Shown here: positions 8,748 through 63,993 of the stretch, piece by piece | How positions within the stretch are numbered: the stretch's first letter is position 1 | How the letters are laid out: the number at the start of each line of letters is the position of its first letter | IMG/VR virus record: IMGVR_UViG_3300047312_000028 | Span: 112,326 to 176,325 of that record | Length of the DNA: 64,000 bases | From: a virus | Reading direction: 5' to 3' (one strand) | Notes under the pieces: generated by a model | What the model saw: the letters and a program-made list of their open reading frames with translations, nothing else | Database searches by the model: none | What the model was told of the DNA's origin: nothing | Made by a program: the position numbers and the translations under genes

Positions 8748-8776
8748 TTGACATTTCAATTCACTTGTGGTATAAT
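8748..8776 (+). promoter_or_regulatory. consensus sigma70 promoter, leaderless arrangement
   Basis: TTGACA (8748-8753), exactly 17 bp, TATAAT (8771-8776): a perfect E. coli-type consensus. The ATG of the SLOG gene follows after 8 nt with no Shine-Dalgarno in between. Confidence 0.85.
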
Positions 8777-8784
8777 TCTCACTT

Positions 8785-9174
8785 ATGCGTCTACTTGTCT
8801 GCGGCGACCGTGAATGGTCAGACTACATTATGATCGAACGTGAAATCAAAAATCTCAAGCCCGCCATCGTGATTGAAGGTGAAGCTAGAGGCGCAGACAG
8901 TCTTGCCCGCAAAGCTGCCGAAACTCTCGGCATTCCAGTTCTCCCCTTCCCCGCTGATTGGGACCAGTATGGTCGATCAGCGGGGCCCATTCGCAATCGC
9001 TTGATGTTAAGTAAAGGTATGCCTACACTTGTACTTGCGTTCCATGATAATCTAGCGAAGTCAAAAGGCACTCTTGATATGGTGAATGCTGCACGAAAGT
9101 ACGGCGTAGAAGTGAGAGTGATTGGACATGGCTCAACCGTAACCTACCCCGCAACAGGAAGACTTGATCTATGA
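8785..9174 (+). CDS. SLOG-family (DUF2493-like) nucleotide-binding protein
   Basis: 129 aa, Rossmann-like. It starts MRLLVCGDREW, then VIEGEARGADSLARKAAE, FPADWDQYGRSAGPIRNRLML: this is the DUF2493/YspA-type SLOG pattern (GxR/D, GGArGaD, ADW, AGxxRN) that binds nucleotide or nucleotide-sugar ligands. Its cellular role is unknown; SLOG proteins are often linked to nucleotide-signal defence or DNA-uptake (DprA) relatives. The start codon lies 8 nt after a perfect promoter. The next gene overlaps by 4 bp. Confidence 0.85.
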   Translation: MRLLVCGDREWSDYIMIEREIKNLKPAIVIEGEARGADSLARKAAETLGIPVLPFPADWDQYGRSAGPIRNRLMLSKGMPTLVLAFHDNLAKSKGTLDMVNAARKYGVEVRVIGHGSTVTYPATGRLDL

Positions 9175-14798: not shown

Positions 14799-14827
14799 TT
14801 GACAGTTCGTCCGAGTTGTGTTATCAT
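14799..14827 (+). promoter_or_regulatory. sigma70-type promoter for the 14930 gene
   Basis: TTGACA (14799-14804), 17 bp, TATCAT (14822-14827). It drives a roughly 95-nt structured leader. Confidence 0.7.
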
Positions 14828-14843
14828 GCGTCATTGAATGTAC

Positions 14844-27860: not shown

Positions 27861-28220
27861 ATGTCAAAAATGTTGCTCACTCACGAACAAATTGCCGAAA
27901 TGGCGCACGAAAATAACAGAGCGTATTGTCATGCGTTAGGAGATTACTCACAAGCACCTTGGAGACTTCTTTCGGATGAACTAAAGACTTCTGCTATTCA
28001 TGGTGTGGGATTTCATATTGCCAATCCTGATGCAACACCAGAACAGTCGCATGAGAGTTGGATGAAAGAGAAGACAGAGAACGGCTGGAAATTTGGTCCA
28101 GTGAAAGATTTAGTCAAGAAGGAACATCCGTGTTTTGTTCCGTACGGTCAGTTGCCGCTCGAACAACGAGTTAAAGATTATCTCTTTACCGCAATAGTAG
28201 ATACTCTTAAAACTTTCTAA
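27861..28220 (+). CDS. RyR-domain protein
   Basis: 119 aa, a single RyR domain: IAEMAHENNRAYCHALGDYSQAPW, then SAIHGVGFHIANPDATPEQSHESWMKEKTENGWKFG, KKEHPCFVPYGQLPLEQRVKDYLF. The domain is shared with ryanodine receptors and occurs alone in many phages and bacteria. Its ligand in phages is unknown; a nucleotide-sensing role has been suggested for bacterial relatives. It directly precedes uvsX. Confidence 0.9.
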   Translation: MSKMLLTHEQIAEMAHENNRAYCHALGDYSQAPWRLLSDELKTSAIHGVGFHIANPDATPEQSHESWMKEKTENGWKFGPVKDLVKKEHPCFVPYGQLPLEQRVKDYLFTAIVDTLKTF

Positions 28221-41013: not shown

Positions 41014-43440
41014 TTGTATCTACCAAAAGACGGCCTTAATATCTCCAGAGAACTTCTCCCCCAGGTCGCCAACGCGGACCTCCCCGATTACTTCAATTGG
41101 CTTAAAACTAACAAGCAAATCTCCTGCATTACTACCGAATTGCCTGTTTCTTCGCTTCATCCATCACAAGGTGACTTCAATGAAGAGAAGATTGCCGAAT
41201 TGATGACGCATAGACTGGAAGAACTCAAAAAGCCAATCATTGTGTCTTCTGACTTCTTCGTGCTCGATGGTCACCATCGTTGGCTAGCGTTGCTCAATAT
41301 GGACCAGAACGACACTATACCGGTAGTCATGACGAATGTGAAGATCATGGATCTGCTTGCAGCCACGAAAGAGTATCCTAAGTCATTCACTAGAACTGTG
41401 GTCGAATCATTCAAGAGTATGATCGGTAGCAAACATGCGGTTATGTCTTATGCCCGCATGAATCCTCCAACGAAGGGTCATGAGAAGCTGATTCATACGG
41501 TGCATCATGTAGCGAATGAGTTTGCCGCTCACCATGAGATCGTATTAAGTCATAAACACGACAACACAAAGAACCCATTGAGCCAGGAGACCAAGCACAG
41601 CTACCTGAAGCAGATGTTTCCAGATACAAATTTTGTGAACGCAACAGATGAACATCCAAGTATATTTCACCACGCGACACGTTTGAATCGCGCAGGATAC
41701 AAGCATTTACATGTGGTCGCTGGTGATGATCGTGCCAAAGAGTTTGAGGAGAAATTACATAAATACAACGGGCACTATGATGACGCAGGCAACGGCTATA
41801 AATTCGACTCGATAACTCTTCACTCCGCTGGTTCGAGAAACCCAGAAGGAAAAGGACTTGAGGGGTTATCGGGTACGAAATTGCGTGATTATGCAGCAAA
41901 TGGGAACTATCCAGAATTTGCAAAAGGTGTGCCAGGATCAACAGAAGTCGCCAAAAGACTCTACAACGATGTGCGACAAGGATTAAAACCGATGAACGAG
42001 AGTGCAGAACTTCTAGAAGAAGGCGTCCATGACGCTGCTATTTTCAAGGCCGTGTTTCTTGCTGGTGCACCAGGCTCCGGTAAAGACTATGTTCTTAAGC
42101 ATGCCTTAGATGGCCACGGTCTTACAGAGATCAGTTCAGATCCGATGTTGACCCATTTGATCGATAAGAACCAAATGGATCGAAAGATGCCAGAGCATGA
42201 GCAAGAGAAGCGTGGCCTGTTGAGAAAGAAAGCTCAATCACTCACCGACCTGCGCCAGAAGCTTGCATTACATGGTCGCAACGGTATCATAGTCAACGGT
42301 TCAGGTGCTAGTTTTGACCAGGTTAAGAAAATCAAAGGTATGCTTGATGAACTAGGCTATGCCTGCAAGATGATCTTTGTAGATACCAGCGACAATGTAA
42401 GCCGCAATCGCAATATCGAACGTGGTCAGAAGGGCGGTCGCACTGTTCCTGAGAAAGCACGAGCAGAGAAGTGGAGAGCCGCGCAGGATTCTCGTGTCAA
42501 TTTCTCTAAACTCTTTGGTTCTGAGAACTATCACGAATTCAACAACGACGAAGACCTCCGCAATAACACTGACGGTGAAGTACATAAGCAGAAGACGAAA
42601 GAACTTGAAGACCTCTTCAAGACAGTCAAGAAGTTTACGCAGCAACCACCGGAGCATCCATCTGCACAAGAATGGGTTCATAAGAATCTTGGTAAGCTTG
42701 CAAAGCAACCACTTGGCAACAAGACTCAGCAAAAGAAGCAAATCCCGGCTTCACCCGATGCACAAGCGACAGAAGACGCCCGCAAACTTGGGCTTCAGTA
42801 CTATGGGTATGGTCGCTATGGTAAAGCAGGACGTGTCACGCATTTCTCATTGAACGGCAAACTGGTAGAGAAGAAGAAAGCATTGACTCCACCTAAGTCG
42901 TTAGAACCAGCAAAAACAACAAAGAAGCTTGATGAAGCTTTTGAAGAACTATTTACGGAGGATAATGATGAACGTATACGATTGGAAAATCACATGGCTT
43001 CTTCTTTTGTGGTGGGAGGATTGGAAGTGGTTCCTTTACATGTACAATACCTCTCCGACACCATGCGAGGACACAGAGAAAGAGTTGATAAAAACAGTCA
43101 AGACAGATTCAGTAACCTCCGTGAATACGTTTGTGAAACCAGCAGGAGTGAAGTTCGAGTGGGAACCGACAAAAGTGACACCAAAGCGCAAGGTAACCAA
43201 GAAGAGAAACCCCAAGAAACAACTTCTTCTTTCCGAGGGCTCATGGAACGATTGGGGTCTAGAAGAACAGAAGTCAAAAAAGAAATCCTCAAAGAAGGCG
43301 AGCCGACGCAAGACGTAGGAGGTGACGGTGGTCCTATTCTTGGTACTGGAACCGCCGAGACTGTTGATAGTACAAACGGTGGCATTGCCACGAACGGTCC
43401 AAAGAAGACATTGAAGAAGTTCAAGGGAGATATCAAGTAA
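41014..43440 (+). CDS. ParB-like/NadM-like nucleotidyltransferase/P-loop kinase fusion (late)
   Basis: 808 aa, TTG start with GAGGGG upstream. Residues 1-120 contain VLDGHHRW (85-90), a ParB/sulfiredoxin-type motif. Residues 140-325 form a HIGH-superfamily nucleotidyltransferase: YARMNPPTKGHEKLI (GH 155-156) and SGTKLR (286-291), as in NadM/NMN adenylyltransferases. Residues 345-500 carry a P-loop GAPGSGKD (351-358) of the polynucleotide or zeta-toxin kinase type. The last 150 residues are low complexity and overlap another frame (42968-43318). A multi-function late, possibly virion-associated enzyme; substrates unknown. Confidence 0.82.
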   Translation: MYLPKDGLNISRELLPQVANADLPDYFNWLKTNKQISCITTELPVSSLHPSQGDFNEEKIAELMTHRLEELKKPIIVSSDFFVLDGHHRWLALLNMDQNDTIPVVMTNVKIMDLLAATKEYPKSFTRTVVESFKSMIGSKHAVMSYARMNPPTKGHEKLIHTVHHVANEFAAHHEIVLSHKHDNTKNPLSQETKHSYLKQMFPDTNFVNATDEHPSIFHHATRLNRAGYKHLHVVAGDDRAKEFEEKLHKYNGHYDDAGNGYKFDSITLHSAGSRNPEGKGLEGLSGTKLRDYAANGNYPEFAKGVPGSTEVAKRLYNDVRQGLKPMNESAELLEEGVHDAAIFKAVFLAGAPGSGKDYVLKHALDGHGLTEISSDPMLTHLIDKNQMDRKMPEHEQEKRGLLRKKAQSLTDLRQKLALHGRNGIIVNGSGASFDQVKKIKGMLDELGYACKMIFVDTSDNVSRNRNIERGQKGGRTVPEKARAEKWRAAQDSRVNFSKLFGSENYHEFNNDEDLRNNTDGEVHKQKTKELEDLFKTVKKFTQQPPEHPSAQEWVHKNLGKLAKQPLGNKTQQKKQIPASPDAQATEDARKLGLQYYGYGRYGKAGRVTHFSLNGKLVEKKKALTPPKSLEPAKTTKKLDEAFEELFTEDNDERIRLENHMASSFVVGGLEVVPLHVQYLSDTMRGHRERVDKNSQDRFSNLREYVCETSRSEVRVGTDKSDTKAQGNQEEKPQETTSSFRGLMERLGSRRTEVKKEILKEGEPTQDVGGDGGPILGTGTAETVDSTNGGIATNGPKKTLKKFKGDIK
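42968..43318 (+). CDS. overlapping-frame membrane protein candidate
   Basis: 116 aa encoded in another frame within the 3' end of the previous gene. GGAGG (42957-42961) lies six bases before ATG 42968. The product starts MNVYDWKITWLLLLWWEDW, a Trp-rich hydrophobic segment, then CEDTEKELIKTVKT... and a strongly basic tail. Size and shape (short membrane anchor plus charged domain) would suit a spanin-like or membrane-attached protein, but no homologue is recognised. Either frame could be the functional one here. Confidence 0.45.
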   Translation: MNVYDWKITWLLLLWWEDWKWFLYMYNTSPTPCEDTEKELIKTVKTDSVTSVNTFVKPAGVKFEWEPTKVTPKRKVTKKRNPKKQLLLSEGSWNDWGLEEQKSKKKSSKKASRRKT

Positions 43441-57301: not shown

Positions 57302-58027
57302 ATGTTTATGAAGTCATTGCGGCATTCGATGCTTGCAGTATCGATGCTGTTTGTGTTTGCACTCATGACGGCATGTAGTTCAGTGTCGTTCTTGCCTATC
57401 ACTGCCGTCGGTCCAGACAGGATGTTGGGGCAACGCACAGTCAACGAAATGAATGCGCTGGCGCCTTCAGTTCAGCGTTCATGGACAGAAGTTTGTAACG
57501 TTCTTATCGTGCAGCACACTGCTCCTTGGGACTGGTCAGAAACATTGTATGAGCCCCCATGTGATCCAGTCGTTATTCCTGGTGCAAACTATGCGAACTC
57601 TCCTGGATACATTGCAGGACTCGCTGCTCCTTTGATTCAAGCAGGAGCAATCGTTGGTGGCGCGTATTTGATTGGGGACGGAATCAAGCATTCTGGCTCT
57701 AAGACTACGAACAACAACGGCGCTTCATCTAATGTCAGCGGTAACACGAACGGCAACAGCAACAATGCTAATGCTCACGGTGGAAACGCGAATGCCCATG
57801 GCGGGAACGCTCAGGGTGGACAGGGTGGAGTTGGTAACGGTGGTCAAGGCGGCGTAGGTAACGGTGGTGAGGGTGGAGTTGGGCAAGGCGGTCAGGGTGG
57901 TGGCGGTGGAATAGGTAACGGCGGCGAGGGCGGCGTCGGAGGCCAGGGTGGCAACGGTGGTCAGGGTGGAGTTGGCGGACAGGGTGGAGCAGGTGGAAAA
58001 GCCTGTGGACAGAACCCAAACTGCTAA
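57302..58027 (+). CDS. lipoprotein with glycine-rich repeat tail
   Basis: 241 aa. Signal MFMKSLRHSMLAVSMLFVFALMTAC with lipobox MTAC (Cys25 lipidated). A 90-residue folded part with two more Cys and a hydrophobic GYIAGLAAPLIQAGAIVGGAYLIGDGI follows. From about 155 the chain is a run of HGGNA, then GGQGGVGNGG-type repeats, almost only Gly with Gln, Asn, Val, Glu, ending KACGQNPNC. Its own promoter and terminator make it an independent unit. A cell-surface lipoprotein made by a phage could alter host surface or block superinfection. Confidence 0.85.
   Translation: MFMKSLRHSMLAVSMLFVFALMTACSSVSFLPITAVGPDRMLGQRTVNEMNALAPSVQRSWTEVCNVLIVQHTAPWDWSETLYEPPCDPVVIPGANYANSPGYIAGLAAPLIQAGAIVGGAYLIGDGIKHSGSKTTNNNGASSNVSGNTNGNSNNANAHGGNANAHGGNAQGGQGGVGNGGQGGVGNGGEGGVGQGGQGGGGGIGNGGEGGVGGQGGNGGQGGVGGQGGAGGKACGQNPNC
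57772..58000 (+). repeat. degenerate glycine-codon tandem repeat
   Basis: Imperfect short repeats of the GGTGG(A/T)CAGGG and GGTAACGGTGG type encode the GGQGGVGNGG tail. Repeat units vary in the third codon position, so the repeat is kept at protein level. Confidence 0.75.
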
Positions 58028-59950: not shown

Positions 59951-60165
59951 GTGAGATCAACATGACGCAACAACTCTCACCGCGCGATTACTCAGTGGTT
60001 CTTGGTAGACTCACAGATCATGGAGTGATTGAAGAAACTGAAAAGAATCAATGGCTTATGAACGCTATACAAATGTCAGACTGTGACTACCATGCACGAT
60101 ATCTTGAATGCCTCAAAGAACTTCATACCCGCCACATAACTCTTGACAATCACTTTCACCTATGA
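59944..60165 (+). CDS. small hypothetical protein
   Basis: 73 aa from ATG 59944 (or 59962). LSPRDYSVVLGRLTDHGVIEETEKNQWLMNAIQMSDCDYHARYLECLKELH is helical. No family recognised. Its 3' end contains the -35 of the PRPP synthetase promoter. Confidence 0.55.
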   Translation: MLSEINMTQQLSPRDYSVVLGRLTDHGVIEETEKNQWLMNAIQMSDCDYHARYLECLKELHTRHITLDNHFHL

Positions 60166-60171
60166 TAGAGT
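60143..60171 (+). promoter_or_regulatory. sigma70-type promoter for the PRPP synthetase gene, leaderless
   Basis: TTGACA (60143-60148), 17 bp, TAGAGT (60166-60171). ATG 60180 follows after exactly 8 nt, the same spacing as at 878, 8785 and 50186. Confidence 0.65.
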
Positions 60172-60179
60172 GAGACATT

Positions 60180-60974
60180 ATGATTATCTCAAACATACCG
60201 CACAAGATGTTTAAGTTCCCTGTGGGCGAAATGCAGGTGAATGTAGAGTATGAACGCCCCTATGATAGTGCTGTTCATGCTGTCAATGTGACGTTTACAT
60301 TCACAAAGAACGAAGACATTATCGAACTCATGTTGTTTGTTGATGCGTGTAAGCGCCAGGGAATGGTCTTAGGTACGCTCACGATGCCGTATGTGCCGTT
60401 TAGTCGCCAGGATCGTAAGAATGCTATTGGAGAATCATTCAGTCTTGCTGTCTTCTGCAATCTCATTAACTCACTCAACTTCTTTCAAGTTGTTGTGCAT
60501 GATCCGCATTCTGATGTGACACCCGCCCTCTTGAATAACTGCTTCGTGCGCGAACAACATACGATGTTGAAGCCTATCCTTGATAAGAACTTAGGCGCTC
60601 AACCATTCTATCTTGTCAGCCCTGATGCTGGCGCACTCAAAAAGATATACAAACTGGCAAAGATGTTTGATAACAACAGGATGATTGGTGTGATTGAGTG
60701 CGGAAAGAAGCGCGATACATCGACGGGTGATATCACAGGCACAGTCATATACAGAACACAACCACTCGTGCCTCAAGTGCCATGTGTGATGATCGATGAT
60801 ATTTGTGATGGTGGGCGAACATTCGTTGAACTTGGTAAAGCACTCAAAGCAAAAGGCGCAGAGAGAGTCCACCTCTATGTGACACACGGATTCTTCACGA
60901 AGGGTCTTGATGTGTTCAATGGAATTGTTGATGTAGTCGATGCAGCACACTTTTATCCGAGCTTCAAATCATGA
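60180..60974 (+). CDS. ribose-phosphate pyrophosphokinase-like enzyme (PRPP synthetase or ADPR-PP synthetase)
   Basis: 264 aa, shorter than cellular enzymes (about 310). LTMPYVPFSRQDRK (69-80) is the ATP-loop signature; VVHDPHSDVTPALLNN, LVSPDAGALKK, and the PRPP loop VMIDDICDGGRT (203-214) are intact. It transfers pyrophosphate from ATP to ribose-5-phosphate or, in NARP1 phages, to ADP-ribose. A NAMPT-family gene follows three genes downstream, so the pair fits the NARP1 NAD+-rebuilding pathway. ADP-ribose specificity cannot be told from motifs alone. Confidence 0.88.
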   Translation: MIISNIPHKMFKFPVGEMQVNVEYERPYDSAVHAVNVTFTFTKNEDIIELMLFVDACKRQGMVLGTLTMPYVPFSRQDRKNAIGESFSLAVFCNLINSLNFFQVVVHDPHSDVTPALLNNCFVREQHTMLKPILDKNLGAQPFYLVSPDAGALKKIYKLAKMFDNNRMIGVIECGKKRDTSTGDITGTVIYRTQPLVPQVPCVMIDDICDGGRTFVELGKALKAKGAERVHLYVTHGFFTKGLDVFNGIVDVVDAAHFYPSFKS

Positions 60975-61444
60975 CTATCACCTTTGTTGAATTTGTCACA
61001 TATAAAACAAAACTAGATGAACGTCTAGCCATTGCAAGTGAACGATGGCGTGAATTGCTGAACAGAAATAACAGAAGGAGCATTCATCCTTCAGTTGTTT
61101 TCACTGACATTTACTATAATCTAGAGCCCGTAACCCAATTACTCAAAGAACTTGGAGTGACAGGCGCCACGGCATACATGAGTGGTATAGATAGATGGGG
61201 CGATGGAGAAAGTATAGAGGTGCCCCTTGATCTTGTGCTGCCGTTATTTGAATTCACAGATGAGGATCCCTATAGCACTGTGAAACTTCTACACTATCGA
61301 TCAATGCTTGATGAACTCGACCAACGGCTACTTACAGAAAAGAAAATACAAGAAGAAAAAGATGAAGTAGCTAGAAAAGAGAGTGATTTGAGAGTATTTG
61401 AATCATTGTTAAAGAAATATCCAGAACTCAGGAATAACATATGA
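60971..61444 (+). CDS. hypothetical protein
   Basis: 157 aa, ATGA overlap. The N-terminal half has SIHPSVVFTDIYYNLEPVTQLLKELGVTGATAYMSG; the C-terminal half is coiled coil (LDELDQRLLTEKKIQEEKDEVARKESDLRVFESLLKKY). No family recognised. It lies between the two NAD-related genes. Confidence 0.6.
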   Translation: MTITFVEFVTYKTKLDERLAIASERWRELLNRNNRRSIHPSVVFTDIYYNLEPVTQLLKELGVTGATAYMSGIDRWGDGESIEVPLDLVLPLFEFTDEDPYSTVKLLHYRSMLDELDQRLLTEKKIQEEKDEVARKESDLRVFESLLKKYPELRNNI

Positions 61445-61749
61445 GAGAAATCTTAATTGCCATAGCAATGGGTGTTCTATTGTATATGTCAGGATGCTCA
61501 AGTGTTCCCTCATTATACAGTGAGCTTGAAGCATGGAAAGGTCAATCGATTGGGTTAGTCATTGAGCATTATGGCAAACCGAGTCAGATTTCTTACAAGG
61601 CAAAGAGCACAGAATATCGATGGCTCAATCATGTTCATGATATGAAGAGTGGTCGAGATTTCTATTGTGCCATCATCGTGACAACAGGCGCAGATGATAA
61701 GGTTGTTGGTTGGGAATACGCTGGTGATAGACAAGCAGGTTGTATCTAA
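61441..61749 (+). CDS. small lipoprotein, SmpA/BamE-like fold possible
   Basis: 102 aa, ATGA overlap. Signal MREILIAIAMGVLLYMSGCSS with lipobox MSGC. The mature part LEAWKGQSIGLVIEHYGKPSQI...TEYRWLNH resembles small outer-membrane lipoproteins in which a G...V...G.P helix-turn precedes a beta sheet. Function unknown. Confidence 0.7.
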   Translation: MREILIAIAMGVLLYMSGCSSVPSLYSELEAWKGQSIGLVIEHYGKPSQISYKAKSTEYRWLNHVHDMKSGRDFYCAIIVTTGADDKVVGWEYAGDRQAGCI

Positions 61750-61763
61750 CATAGGAGATTGAC

Positions 61764-63221
61764 ATGAGCACATCCCCAATACATTTTTCAGATTTCTACA
61801 AAACAGATCACGCACGTCAAGCGCCTGATGGTACGACAGGTATTTATGCGAACATGACGCCGCGCGGATCACGTATTGAGGGGATTGATAAGGTGGTTGT
61901 GTTCGGCTTTCAATATTTCGTGCTTGAGTATCTAATCAAGCGATTCAATCGAGACTTTTTCGAGCAGCCTAAGGACCTTGCCGTTCGGAGATATAAGCGC
62001 AGACTTGACAATGCCCTAGGCAAAGATGCTGTAGAGGTCTCACGATGGGAGAAGCTGCATGATCTTGGCTATCTACCATTGCATATCAAGGCGCTGAACG
62101 AAGGATTGTTGTGTCCTATGCGTGTGCCTGCACTCACAATTCGTGAGACACATCCAGATTTCTATTGGCTACCTACATGGATGGAAACGCTGTTATCAAC
62201 AGTCACATGGCATCCGATGACTAGCGCGACGATTGCACACCAATATCGTGTACTGATTGATGCGTATGCTGTAGAGACTTCAGACATTCCAAACTTTGCA
62301 GATTGGCAGGGGCATGACTTCAGTATGCGTGGTCATACAAGTGTTGAATCATCCTGTGTGAGCGGCATGGCGCACTTGTTAAGCTTCACAGGTACAGATA
62401 CGATTCCAGCAATTGATTTCCTCGAGGAATACTATTTTGCCAACTCTGATGAAGAGTTAGTGGGTGGTAGTGTGCCTGCGACTGAACACTCGGTCATGTG
62501 TTTGGGTAGTAAAGAGACTGAATTTGAAACATATAAACGCCTTATCTCTAAAGTGTATCCAAAGGGATTCATTAGCATTGTGTCAGACACATGGGACTAC
62601 TGGAAGATTCTCACAGAGGTGCTCCCTGCCTTGAAAGCAGAGATCATGGCACGAGATGGTCGCGTGGTCATACGACCTGACTCAGGCGATCCTGTGAAAA
62701 TCATTTGTGGCGACCCTGATGCACCCAAAGGGAGCCCAGCACACAAAGGCACTATCGAATTGCTCTACGAAGCATTCGGTGGTGAGAAGAACTCGAAAGG
62801 GTACATACAGCTTGATACCCATATCGGTGCTATCTATGGTGATTCGATCACTCTGCAACGTGCCAAAGAGATACTTGAGGGATTGAAGAGTAAAGGATTT
62901 GCATCCACCAACATAGTATTCGGCATCGGTTCATTCACATATCAATATGTGACACGAGACACATTTGGATTCGCAGTGAAAGCAACCTCAGGTATTATCA
63001 ATGGGGAACGAGTAGCGATCTTCAAAGATCCAAAGACTGATTCAGGTCTTAAGCGATCTGCAAAGGGATTACTCAGAGTCAATGCAGACTTCAGCTTATC
63101 GGAAGATGTGACTGAAGATGAAGAGAAAGAGGGATTACTTGAAACCATATTCGACAATGGGGTAGCATACAACCTTCAAACACTTACGGAGATTCGTAAG
63201 AGATTGGCAGAGCAGCTATGA
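61764..63221 (+). CDS. nicotinamide phosphoribosyltransferase family enzyme (NAMPT/Namat)
   Basis: 485 aa, the length of NAMPT, with GGAG upstream. FSDFYKTDHARQAPDGTTGIYANMTPRGSR, DWQGHDFSMRGHTSVESS, IVSDTWDYWKILTEVLP, RDGRVVIRPDSGDP and FGIGSFTYQYVTRDTFGFAVKA are family landmarks, including Asp and Arg residues of the nicotinamide and PRPP sites. NAMPT makes NMN from nicotinamide and PRPP; the NARP1 version (Namat) makes NAD+ from nicotinamide and ADPR-PP. Phage NAD+ repair counters NAD+-depleting defences. Confidence 0.93.
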   Translation: MSTSPIHFSDFYKTDHARQAPDGTTGIYANMTPRGSRIEGIDKVVVFGFQYFVLEYLIKRFNRDFFEQPKDLAVRRYKRRLDNALGKDAVEVSRWEKLHDLGYLPLHIKALNEGLLCPMRVPALTIRETHPDFYWLPTWMETLLSTVTWHPMTSATIAHQYRVLIDAYAVETSDIPNFADWQGHDFSMRGHTSVESSCVSGMAHLLSFTGTDTIPAIDFLEEYYFANSDEELVGGSVPATEHSVMCLGSKETEFETYKRLISKVYPKGFISIVSDTWDYWKILTEVLPALKAEIMARDGRVVIRPDSGDPVKIICGDPDAPKGSPAHKGTIELLYEAFGGEKNSKGYIQLDTHIGAIYGDSITLQRAKEILEGLKSKGFASTNIVFGIGSFTYQYVTRDTFGFAVKATSGIINGERVAIFKDPKTDSGLKRSAKGLLRVNADFSLSEDVTEDEEKEGLLETIFDNGVAYNLQTLTEIRKRLAEQL

Positions 63222-63391: not shown

Positions 63392-63586
63392 ATGGGACTA
63401 AAGTATCAGATATACACACCAGGATCCAAGAAGCGTCTACTCTTTATCATTCGTGATATTGAGAATTTGCTTGAATGTGATGCCGACCGTGAACATATTA
63501 TGTTTAAGATAGCAGAATTGATGCCTTTAGCGGTCAATCAATTCGCCTGTTGTCCATCACCAATAGTCAAGAAGAAAGATTCATGA
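63392..63586 (+). CDS. small hypothetical protein
   Basis: 64 aa from ATG 63392 (an in-frame TTG lies at 63380). Amphipathic; contains VNQFACCPSP near the end. Its stop overlaps the ATG of the PRTase gene. Unknown function. Confidence 0.5.
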   Translation: MGLKYQIYTPGSKKRLLFIIRDIENLLECDADREHIMFKIAELMPLAVNQFACCPSPIVKKKDS

Positions 63587-63993
63587 ACCCAGAATATGAG
63601 GCATGGCTCGATGGTTATAGGGGACCCGCTCTCTTTCAATTTGGTGTCTTTACCCTTCATTCCGGTAAGCAATCAACATTCAAACTTGAATGCGATGCCG
63701 TCCGTAAATCTGAATGGCATTCACTTGCACGAATTGCGCTACCGATTCTGCCAGCATTTGGTGCTGTGCAAGCTGTCCCGAATGGTGGTTACAACTGGGC
63801 AGATATCTTCGAGCATTATATCCAACCGGGTGTCCACAGAACTTTAGTCGTGGATGATGTGTGGTCAACAGGTGATAGTATGATGCAGCACGTCCCTAAA
63901 GATACTCCCTGGCATGGTCTCGTGCTCTTTGCCCGTGGGCCTGTACCTAAGAATGTCACAGCATTGTTTATGTTGCATGAGGATCTACAATAA
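63583..63993 (+). CDS. phosphoribosyltransferase (orotate-PRTase-like)
   Basis: 136 aa, ATGA overlap. FGVFTLHSGKQSTFKLECDAV resembles the orotate PRTase N-terminal hood (F.LhSGk.S..), and RTLVVDDVWSTGDSMMQ is the PRPP-binding loop (VVDDV.STG). It is short (cellular OPRTs about 210 aa). It would use PRPP made by the enzyme at 60180, or act on another base. The next gene begins with ATG at 63993 (TAATG) and leaves the window after 8 bases. Confidence 0.78.
   Translation: MNPEYEAWLDGYRGPALFQFGVFTLHSGKQSTFKLECDAVRKSEWHSLARIALPILPAFGAVQAVPNGGYNWADIFEHYIQPGVHRTLVVDDVWSTGDSMMQHVPKDTPWHGLVLFARGPVPKNVTALFMLHEDLQ

Follow-up and report, generated by a model that had tools for sequence, protein, structure and literature searches.

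A predicted NARP1 operon and a RyR-domain protein in an uncultivated tailed-phage lineage

Layout of the locus and its surroundings

The window, the 64,000 nucleotides analysed here, forms the final 64 kb of a virus record 176,325 bases long. Its NARP1 locus lies among tailed-phage genes, including those for a family-B DNA polymerase, UvsX, a DnaB-type helicase, a primase, ThyX and ribonucleotide reductase. Four genes follow one another on the + strand in the order synthetase, 157-aa protein, lipoprotein and Nampt-family protein. A first-pass annotation had assigned the outer two, at 60180–60974 and 61764–63221 on the + strand, to the PRPP-synthetase and NAMPT families. The reading frames were found at these positions, and both family assignments hold, with matches far above chance to phrog_619 (E 1e-75) and phrog_448 (E 2e-193), respectively. 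The lipoprotein and the coiled-coil protein described as lying between them were also recovered. The first is a 157-aa orphan whose C-terminus is charged and probably coiled-coil (60971–61444, +), whose start overlaps the stop of the synthetase gene in an ATGA, so that the two are predicted to be translationally coupled. The second is a 102-aa predicted lipoprotein (61441–61749, +) with the lipobox ...LYMSGC. The start of the Nampt-family gene is preceded by AGGAGA. With two genes between them on the same strand, the outer genes fall within the spacing of 10 genes that was used to define an operon, and in most relatives the synthetase gene likewise adjoins, or lies shortly upstream of, its partner.

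The promoter of its own that had been proposed for the synthetase gene is present as a sigma-70-type sequence, TTGACA-17-TGaTAGAGT, at 60143–60171 (+), ending 8 nt before the ATG. Promoter-like sites across the region were in no excess over shuffled sequence. A similar site occurs within 100 nt upstream of adps in 6 of 8 syntenic genes, compared with 2.6% of random 100-nt windows, and a host-type promoter of its own probably drives transcription of the NARP1 pair. The 8-nt spacing makes a leaderless adps transcript plausible. The distance from the −10 site to the start is 23–37 nt in most relatives, so the leaderless transcript, if real, would be peculiar, or nearly so, to this copy. Elsewhere on the + strand of the window, strong promoter-like sites were seen at 8748–8787 (TTGACA-17-TGnTATAAT) and 14799–14840 (TTGACA-17-TGnTATCAT), each with an ATG 8–10 nt past the −10 site, and a set of near-leaderless transcripts is possible in this phage.

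Three other genes of the window deserve description. An 808-aa protein (41014–43440, +) combines a phage cytidylyltransferase-type domain with an AAA_33/zeta-like P-loop kinase domain; it gave weak matches to PF01467 (below the cut-off) and to NMN-adenylyltransferase PHROGs, and in NCBIfam nothing beyond weak kinase matches. It was considered as an NMN adenylyltransferase and rejected, the PF01467 match being below the cut-off and lying inside a nucleotidyltransferase plus kinase protein. A 241-aa predicted lipoprotein (57302–58027, +) has a long Gly/Asn-rich repeat tail and no family match; relatives of it lie upstream of adps in loci L009, L012 and L015. Finally, an open reading frame downstream of namat (63550–63993, +; ATG at 63583) carries the PyrE-like motif TLVVDDVWSTGDSM, and its product could be a third phosphoribosyltransferase, of the small type-I class. 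Its match to TIGR00336 is weak and covers 19 residues only (E 5.5e-4), PF00156 does not pick it up, no relatives were found in phages or IMG/VR, and structure prediction without an alignment reached a pLDDT of 42, too low to be informative.

Identity of the two enzymes

Namat, the nicotinamide ADP-ribose transferase of NARP1, is defined by an adenine clamp consisting of a helix, GSX-Phi-X-Phi-X-Phi-TRD, and a loop residue (Lan et al., PMC12774641). Residues 3 and 7 of the clamp helix are aromatic and stack on the adenine, and the loop residue is as a rule Arg, Lys or Tyr (PMC12774641). The 485-aa protein at 61764–63221 (+) matches this signature exactly with GSFTYQYVTRD at residues 389–399 (nt 62928–62960), and its loop residue Arg37 corresponds to Arg40 of the Namat of Bacillus phage SPbetaL1. 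The two proteins are 54.5% identical over 98% of the length. The closest solved chain was 9w5x, which in both sequence and residue numbering corresponds to SPbetaL1 Namat as published; the window protein scored 575 bits with this chain and 212 bits with human NAMPT. Aligned with SPbetaL1 Namat, the window protein shares every NAD+ contact listed for that enzyme (PMC12774641) but one: A362 is replaced by Ser, as in most Namats. In the same alignment the Nampt-like core (Phe189, Arg192, Asp215, Arg306, Asp308 and the catalytic His) is also identical, with the catalytic His242 sitting in ATEHSVM.

The clamp motif was absent from nine Nampt-type control proteins of phages (Margaery, ValKK3, Moby, Ccr34, RaK2, PG07, PX29, Mendera and ACP17). 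The first six of these are Nampts with no Adps neighbour, and in the tree a 100/100 branch placed the window protein on the Namat side, apart from these six. On clamp, contacts and tree position taken together, the Nampt-family protein is identified as a Namat.

The synthetase (60180–60974, +; 264 aa) is related to the PRPP synthetases (Prs), with a match to TIGR01251 (E 3e-32) slightly under that model's cut-off. It had been described as shorter than the cellular enzyme, rightly, since eight cellular Prs are 313–340 aa long; Adps lengths span 241–328 aa in the compared set, making shortness a trait of the family. The ATP motif RQDR (76–79), the metal histidine in DPHS (108–111) and the catalytic Lys/Arg (KKRD, 176–179) are kept. 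The ribose-5-phosphate loop is different: it reads DDxxDT(G/A)GTL in cellular Prs but DDICDGGRTF (206–215) in the window synthetase, whose Namat-associated relatives, with few exceptions, show DD(I/L)xDGGxTF or something close to it. Our literature search found no residue signature for the substrate choice of Adps, a matter that PMC12774641 terms obscure, and the altered loop is suggestive of ADP-ribose use. The predicted structure (39 relatives in the alignment; pLDDT 94) matches PRPP synthetases along the whole chain (Z 21; 2.5–2.9 Å over 244–251 residues), a fold that does not discriminate between substrates.

A maximum-likelihood tree of 63 sequences placed the synthetase with proteins encoded beside namat (nearest clade 100/98) and split it with 100/100 support from the eight cellular PRPP synthetases, which come solely from the eight sampled bacterial genomes; some branches elsewhere in this tree are long. 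The trees of both proteins, proposed beforehand as a check, thus separated them from Prs and Nampt. Clustering with ordinary PRPP synthetases, the outcome that the first-pass annotation had named as fatal to its reading, was not observed, and the refutation fails because the synthetase groups with Namat-associated Adps and carries the altered loop. On this evidence we identify the synthetase as an Adps, an ADP-ribose pyrophosphate synthetase. These comparisons establish the enzyme identities, the catalytic and adenine-clamp residues, the tree positions and the operon order in relatives.

The same data bear on ordinary NMN salvage, in which the synthetase would make PRPP, the Nampt-like protein would make NMN, and a host NMNAT would complete NAD+. 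Both proteins do belong to the wider Prs and Nampt families, and SPbetaL1 Namat retains an NMN-forming activity, producing NMN from PRPP in vitro (PMC12774641), so that both NAD+ and NMN are possible products of the window enzyme. However, the adenine clamp is complete and is missing from phage Nampts without Adps, the substrate loop is unlike that of every cellular Prs examined, and both trees give the Namat/Adps placement. The genome also has no clear NMN adenylyltransferase, the sub-cut-off PF01467 match inside the 808-aa protein being the only candidate. We therefore regard plain NMN salvage as very improbable.

Genes at the adps–namat junction and the RyR-domain protein

The two genes that split the pair were compared with the corresponding region of related loci. 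The window and the related contigs share the gene order upstream of adps. In the syntenic loci L005, L009, L012, L015 and G059, both middle genes are missing and the gap between adps and namat is 0–82 nt. Searches of phages and IMG/VR gave no relative of the 157-aa protein; the lipoprotein has none in IMG/VR, one marginal match in phages and a weak match to phrog_3716 (E 4e-7 over residues 16–51), and neither gene has relatives at the other NARP1 loci compared. By this comparison the two genes represent an insertion into the adps–namat pair.

It could be argued that all four genes form a single unit, with the 157-aa protein and the lipoprotein required for the NAD+ pathway, given that the genes overlap or nearly touch in one orientation throughout 60180–63221. 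Conservation speaks against such a requirement, in that the syntenic loci do without both genes and other NARP1 loci have no relatives of either, and a two-gene NARP1 was enough in the published assays. We give an obligatory four-gene pathway almost no credence, and treat the middle genes as additions to a two-enzyme operon.

Other genes were found at this junction in other genomes: RyDEP in Mycobacterium phage DyoEdafos, an HNH endonuclease gene in pinkbiff, a gene with a weak macro-domain match in locus L058 and one for a deoxyribosyltransferase-like protein in L060. From their position alone, we infer that the two middle genes of the window may have a counter-defence role.

A further gene of potential relevance lies outside the operon. 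Only one RyR domain came out of a family search over the entire record; it lies in a 119-aa protein of the RyDEP family encoded at 27861–28220 (+; PF02026, E 2e-12), between polB and uvsX in the replication block. This protein is predicted to be either a cADPR sponge or a glycosidase. His64, Trp67, His89 and Asp106 align with H75, W78, H100 and D117 of RyDEP, which are its catalytic dyad and ligand residues (PMC13232231). Gln54 of DyoEdafos RyDEP is replaced by Ser in the window protein, and likewise in all other aligned homologues. The window protein is 56% identical to a homologue from a Pectobacterium phage; with DyoEdafos RyDEP it shares 33% identity over 89 aa. Of eight RyDEP homologues tested in the preprint PMC13232231, six bound cADPR and none cleaved it, which makes a sponge likelier than a glycosidase for the window protein. 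One of the sponge-type homologues there is from a Pectobacterium phage, although it may not be the 56%-identical protein. The RyR protein is thus probably a cADPR sponge that would block Thoeris signals.

The combination is shared by relatives. The 168-kb contig G010 has the same polymerase–RyR–UvsX order together with adps and namat, and the 62-kb contig G059 carries both RyR and NARP1. RyR was not found in the NARP1 phages SPbetaL1, ctKR88, G15, DirkDirk, JSF13, pinkbiff, outra, BIS47, FADO and DAC15; DyoEdafos, alone among the named NARP1 phages searched, has it too. The record and the two related contigs document a lineage with NARP1 plus a RyDEP-family protein.

A more speculative possibility is that the junction serves counter-defence genes as a landing site, and that the two orphans found there encode new counter-defence proteins, working alongside NARP1 and a RyR protein that disarms Thoeris. 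We hold this idea tentatively and would not bet on it. If it were true, the phage would act on both the Thoeris signal and the loss of NAD+. The variable junction itself, with its RyDEP, HNH endonuclease, macro-like and orphan genes, offers a concrete place to hunt for new counter-defence genes.

Relatives of the window Namat were found in 1,938 phage records, true Nampts included. They are also common in bacterial chromosomes, mostly of Bacteroidota (264 loci in one scan); at loci L108–L187 they are 57–61% identical and have the clamp motif. Many bacterial loci contain genes for macro domains, ADP-ribosylglycohydrolase, PARG, NADAR, KptA/Tpt1 or metallophosphatases between adps and namat, suggesting that these clusters may recycle ADP-ribose to NAD+ as a chromosomal function. 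Locus L004 (CAKLQF020000015.1), labelled Acinetobacter phage MD-2021a, has adps, namat and a NadM/Nudix gene; because ABC transporter and multidrug-resistance genes adjoin them, it resembles a bacterial chromosome and not a phage.

Probable NAD+ reconstitution and comparison with known systems

With an Adps at 60180–60974 and a Namat at 61764–63221, the locus is a NARP1 operon in composition, and that it belongs to a large tailed phage and rebuilds NAD+ against defences is, in our judgement, highly likely. The NARP1-like reading first put forward from the open reading frames is thus supported by the clamp and contact residues, the trees and the Adps-type substrate loop. Among the points against it, the Adps is just 31–33% identical to the assayed Adps proteins (33% over 178 aa to that of SPbetaL1), and two unrelated genes split the pair.

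The proposed pathway is as follows. During infection the operon would be expressed, and a defence effector (TIR, SIR2 or SEFIR) would split NAD+ into ADP-ribose and nicotinamide. Using ATP, Adps would convert ADP-ribose to ADP-ribose pyrophosphate (ADPR-PP), and Namat would join ADPR-PP and nicotinamide directly into NAD+, in two steps altogether and with no NMN adenylyltransferase. The restored NAD+ would then allow phage growth. Upstream of these steps, the target of the RyR protein would be the cADPR signal of Thoeris, and if the protein were catalytic it would supply ADP-ribose to the operon as well. The genome encodes no NUDIX protein. The substrate specificity and the anti-defence role in this scheme are those of characterised relatives, from which we infer them.

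The same chemistry could be put to anabolic use, the pair just raising NAD+ for replication or recycling ADP-ribose released by phage or host ADP-ribosylation. Bacterial NARP1 loci, with their accompanying macro, ADP-ribosylglycohydrolase, PARG, NADAR and KptA genes, indicate general ADP-ribose recycling. Characterised phage NARP1, on the other hand, counters several NAD+-depleting defences (PMC12774641), and a RyR protein of the anti-Thoeris type is present in the same phage. We consider a purely anabolic role unlikely and favour NAD+ reconstitution as counter-defence. NARP1 is widespread and already described; what was less expected is NARP1 and RyR in one uncultivated lineage, with a variable junction. 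A complete operon could be recognised there by the published clamp rules.

The uncultivated relatives L005, L009, L012, L015 and G059 of IMG/VR have the same upstream order, enzymes that are both 53–68% identical and, in most, a promoter-like site upstream of adps, but no intervening genes. The phages Margaery, ValKK3, Moby and Ccr34 encode Nampt, or Nampt plus NMN adenylyltransferase; these Nampts are distant homologues with 30–33% identity to Namat, no nearby Adps and no GS......TRD clamp, and are expected to make NMN. The window pair is homologous to both the SPbetaL1 and the DyoEdafos pairs, which have been assayed (PMC12774641, PMC13232231). NARP1 of SPbetaL1 (Adps WIT26982, Namat WIT26983), for whose Namat structures are available (PMC12774641), comes from a different phage and encodes both families, ordered as in the window; its genes touch, whereas the window pair is split by two extra genes. 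The NARP1–RyDEP operon of DyoEdafos (PMC13232231) is similar in content, with Adps, Namat and a RyR protein in one genome, as here, and with accessory genes inserted at the adps–namat junction in both phages. In DyoEdafos, however, it is the anti-Thoeris RyDEP itself that occupies the junction, whereas in the window the orphans are found there and the RyR gene lies 32 kb away.
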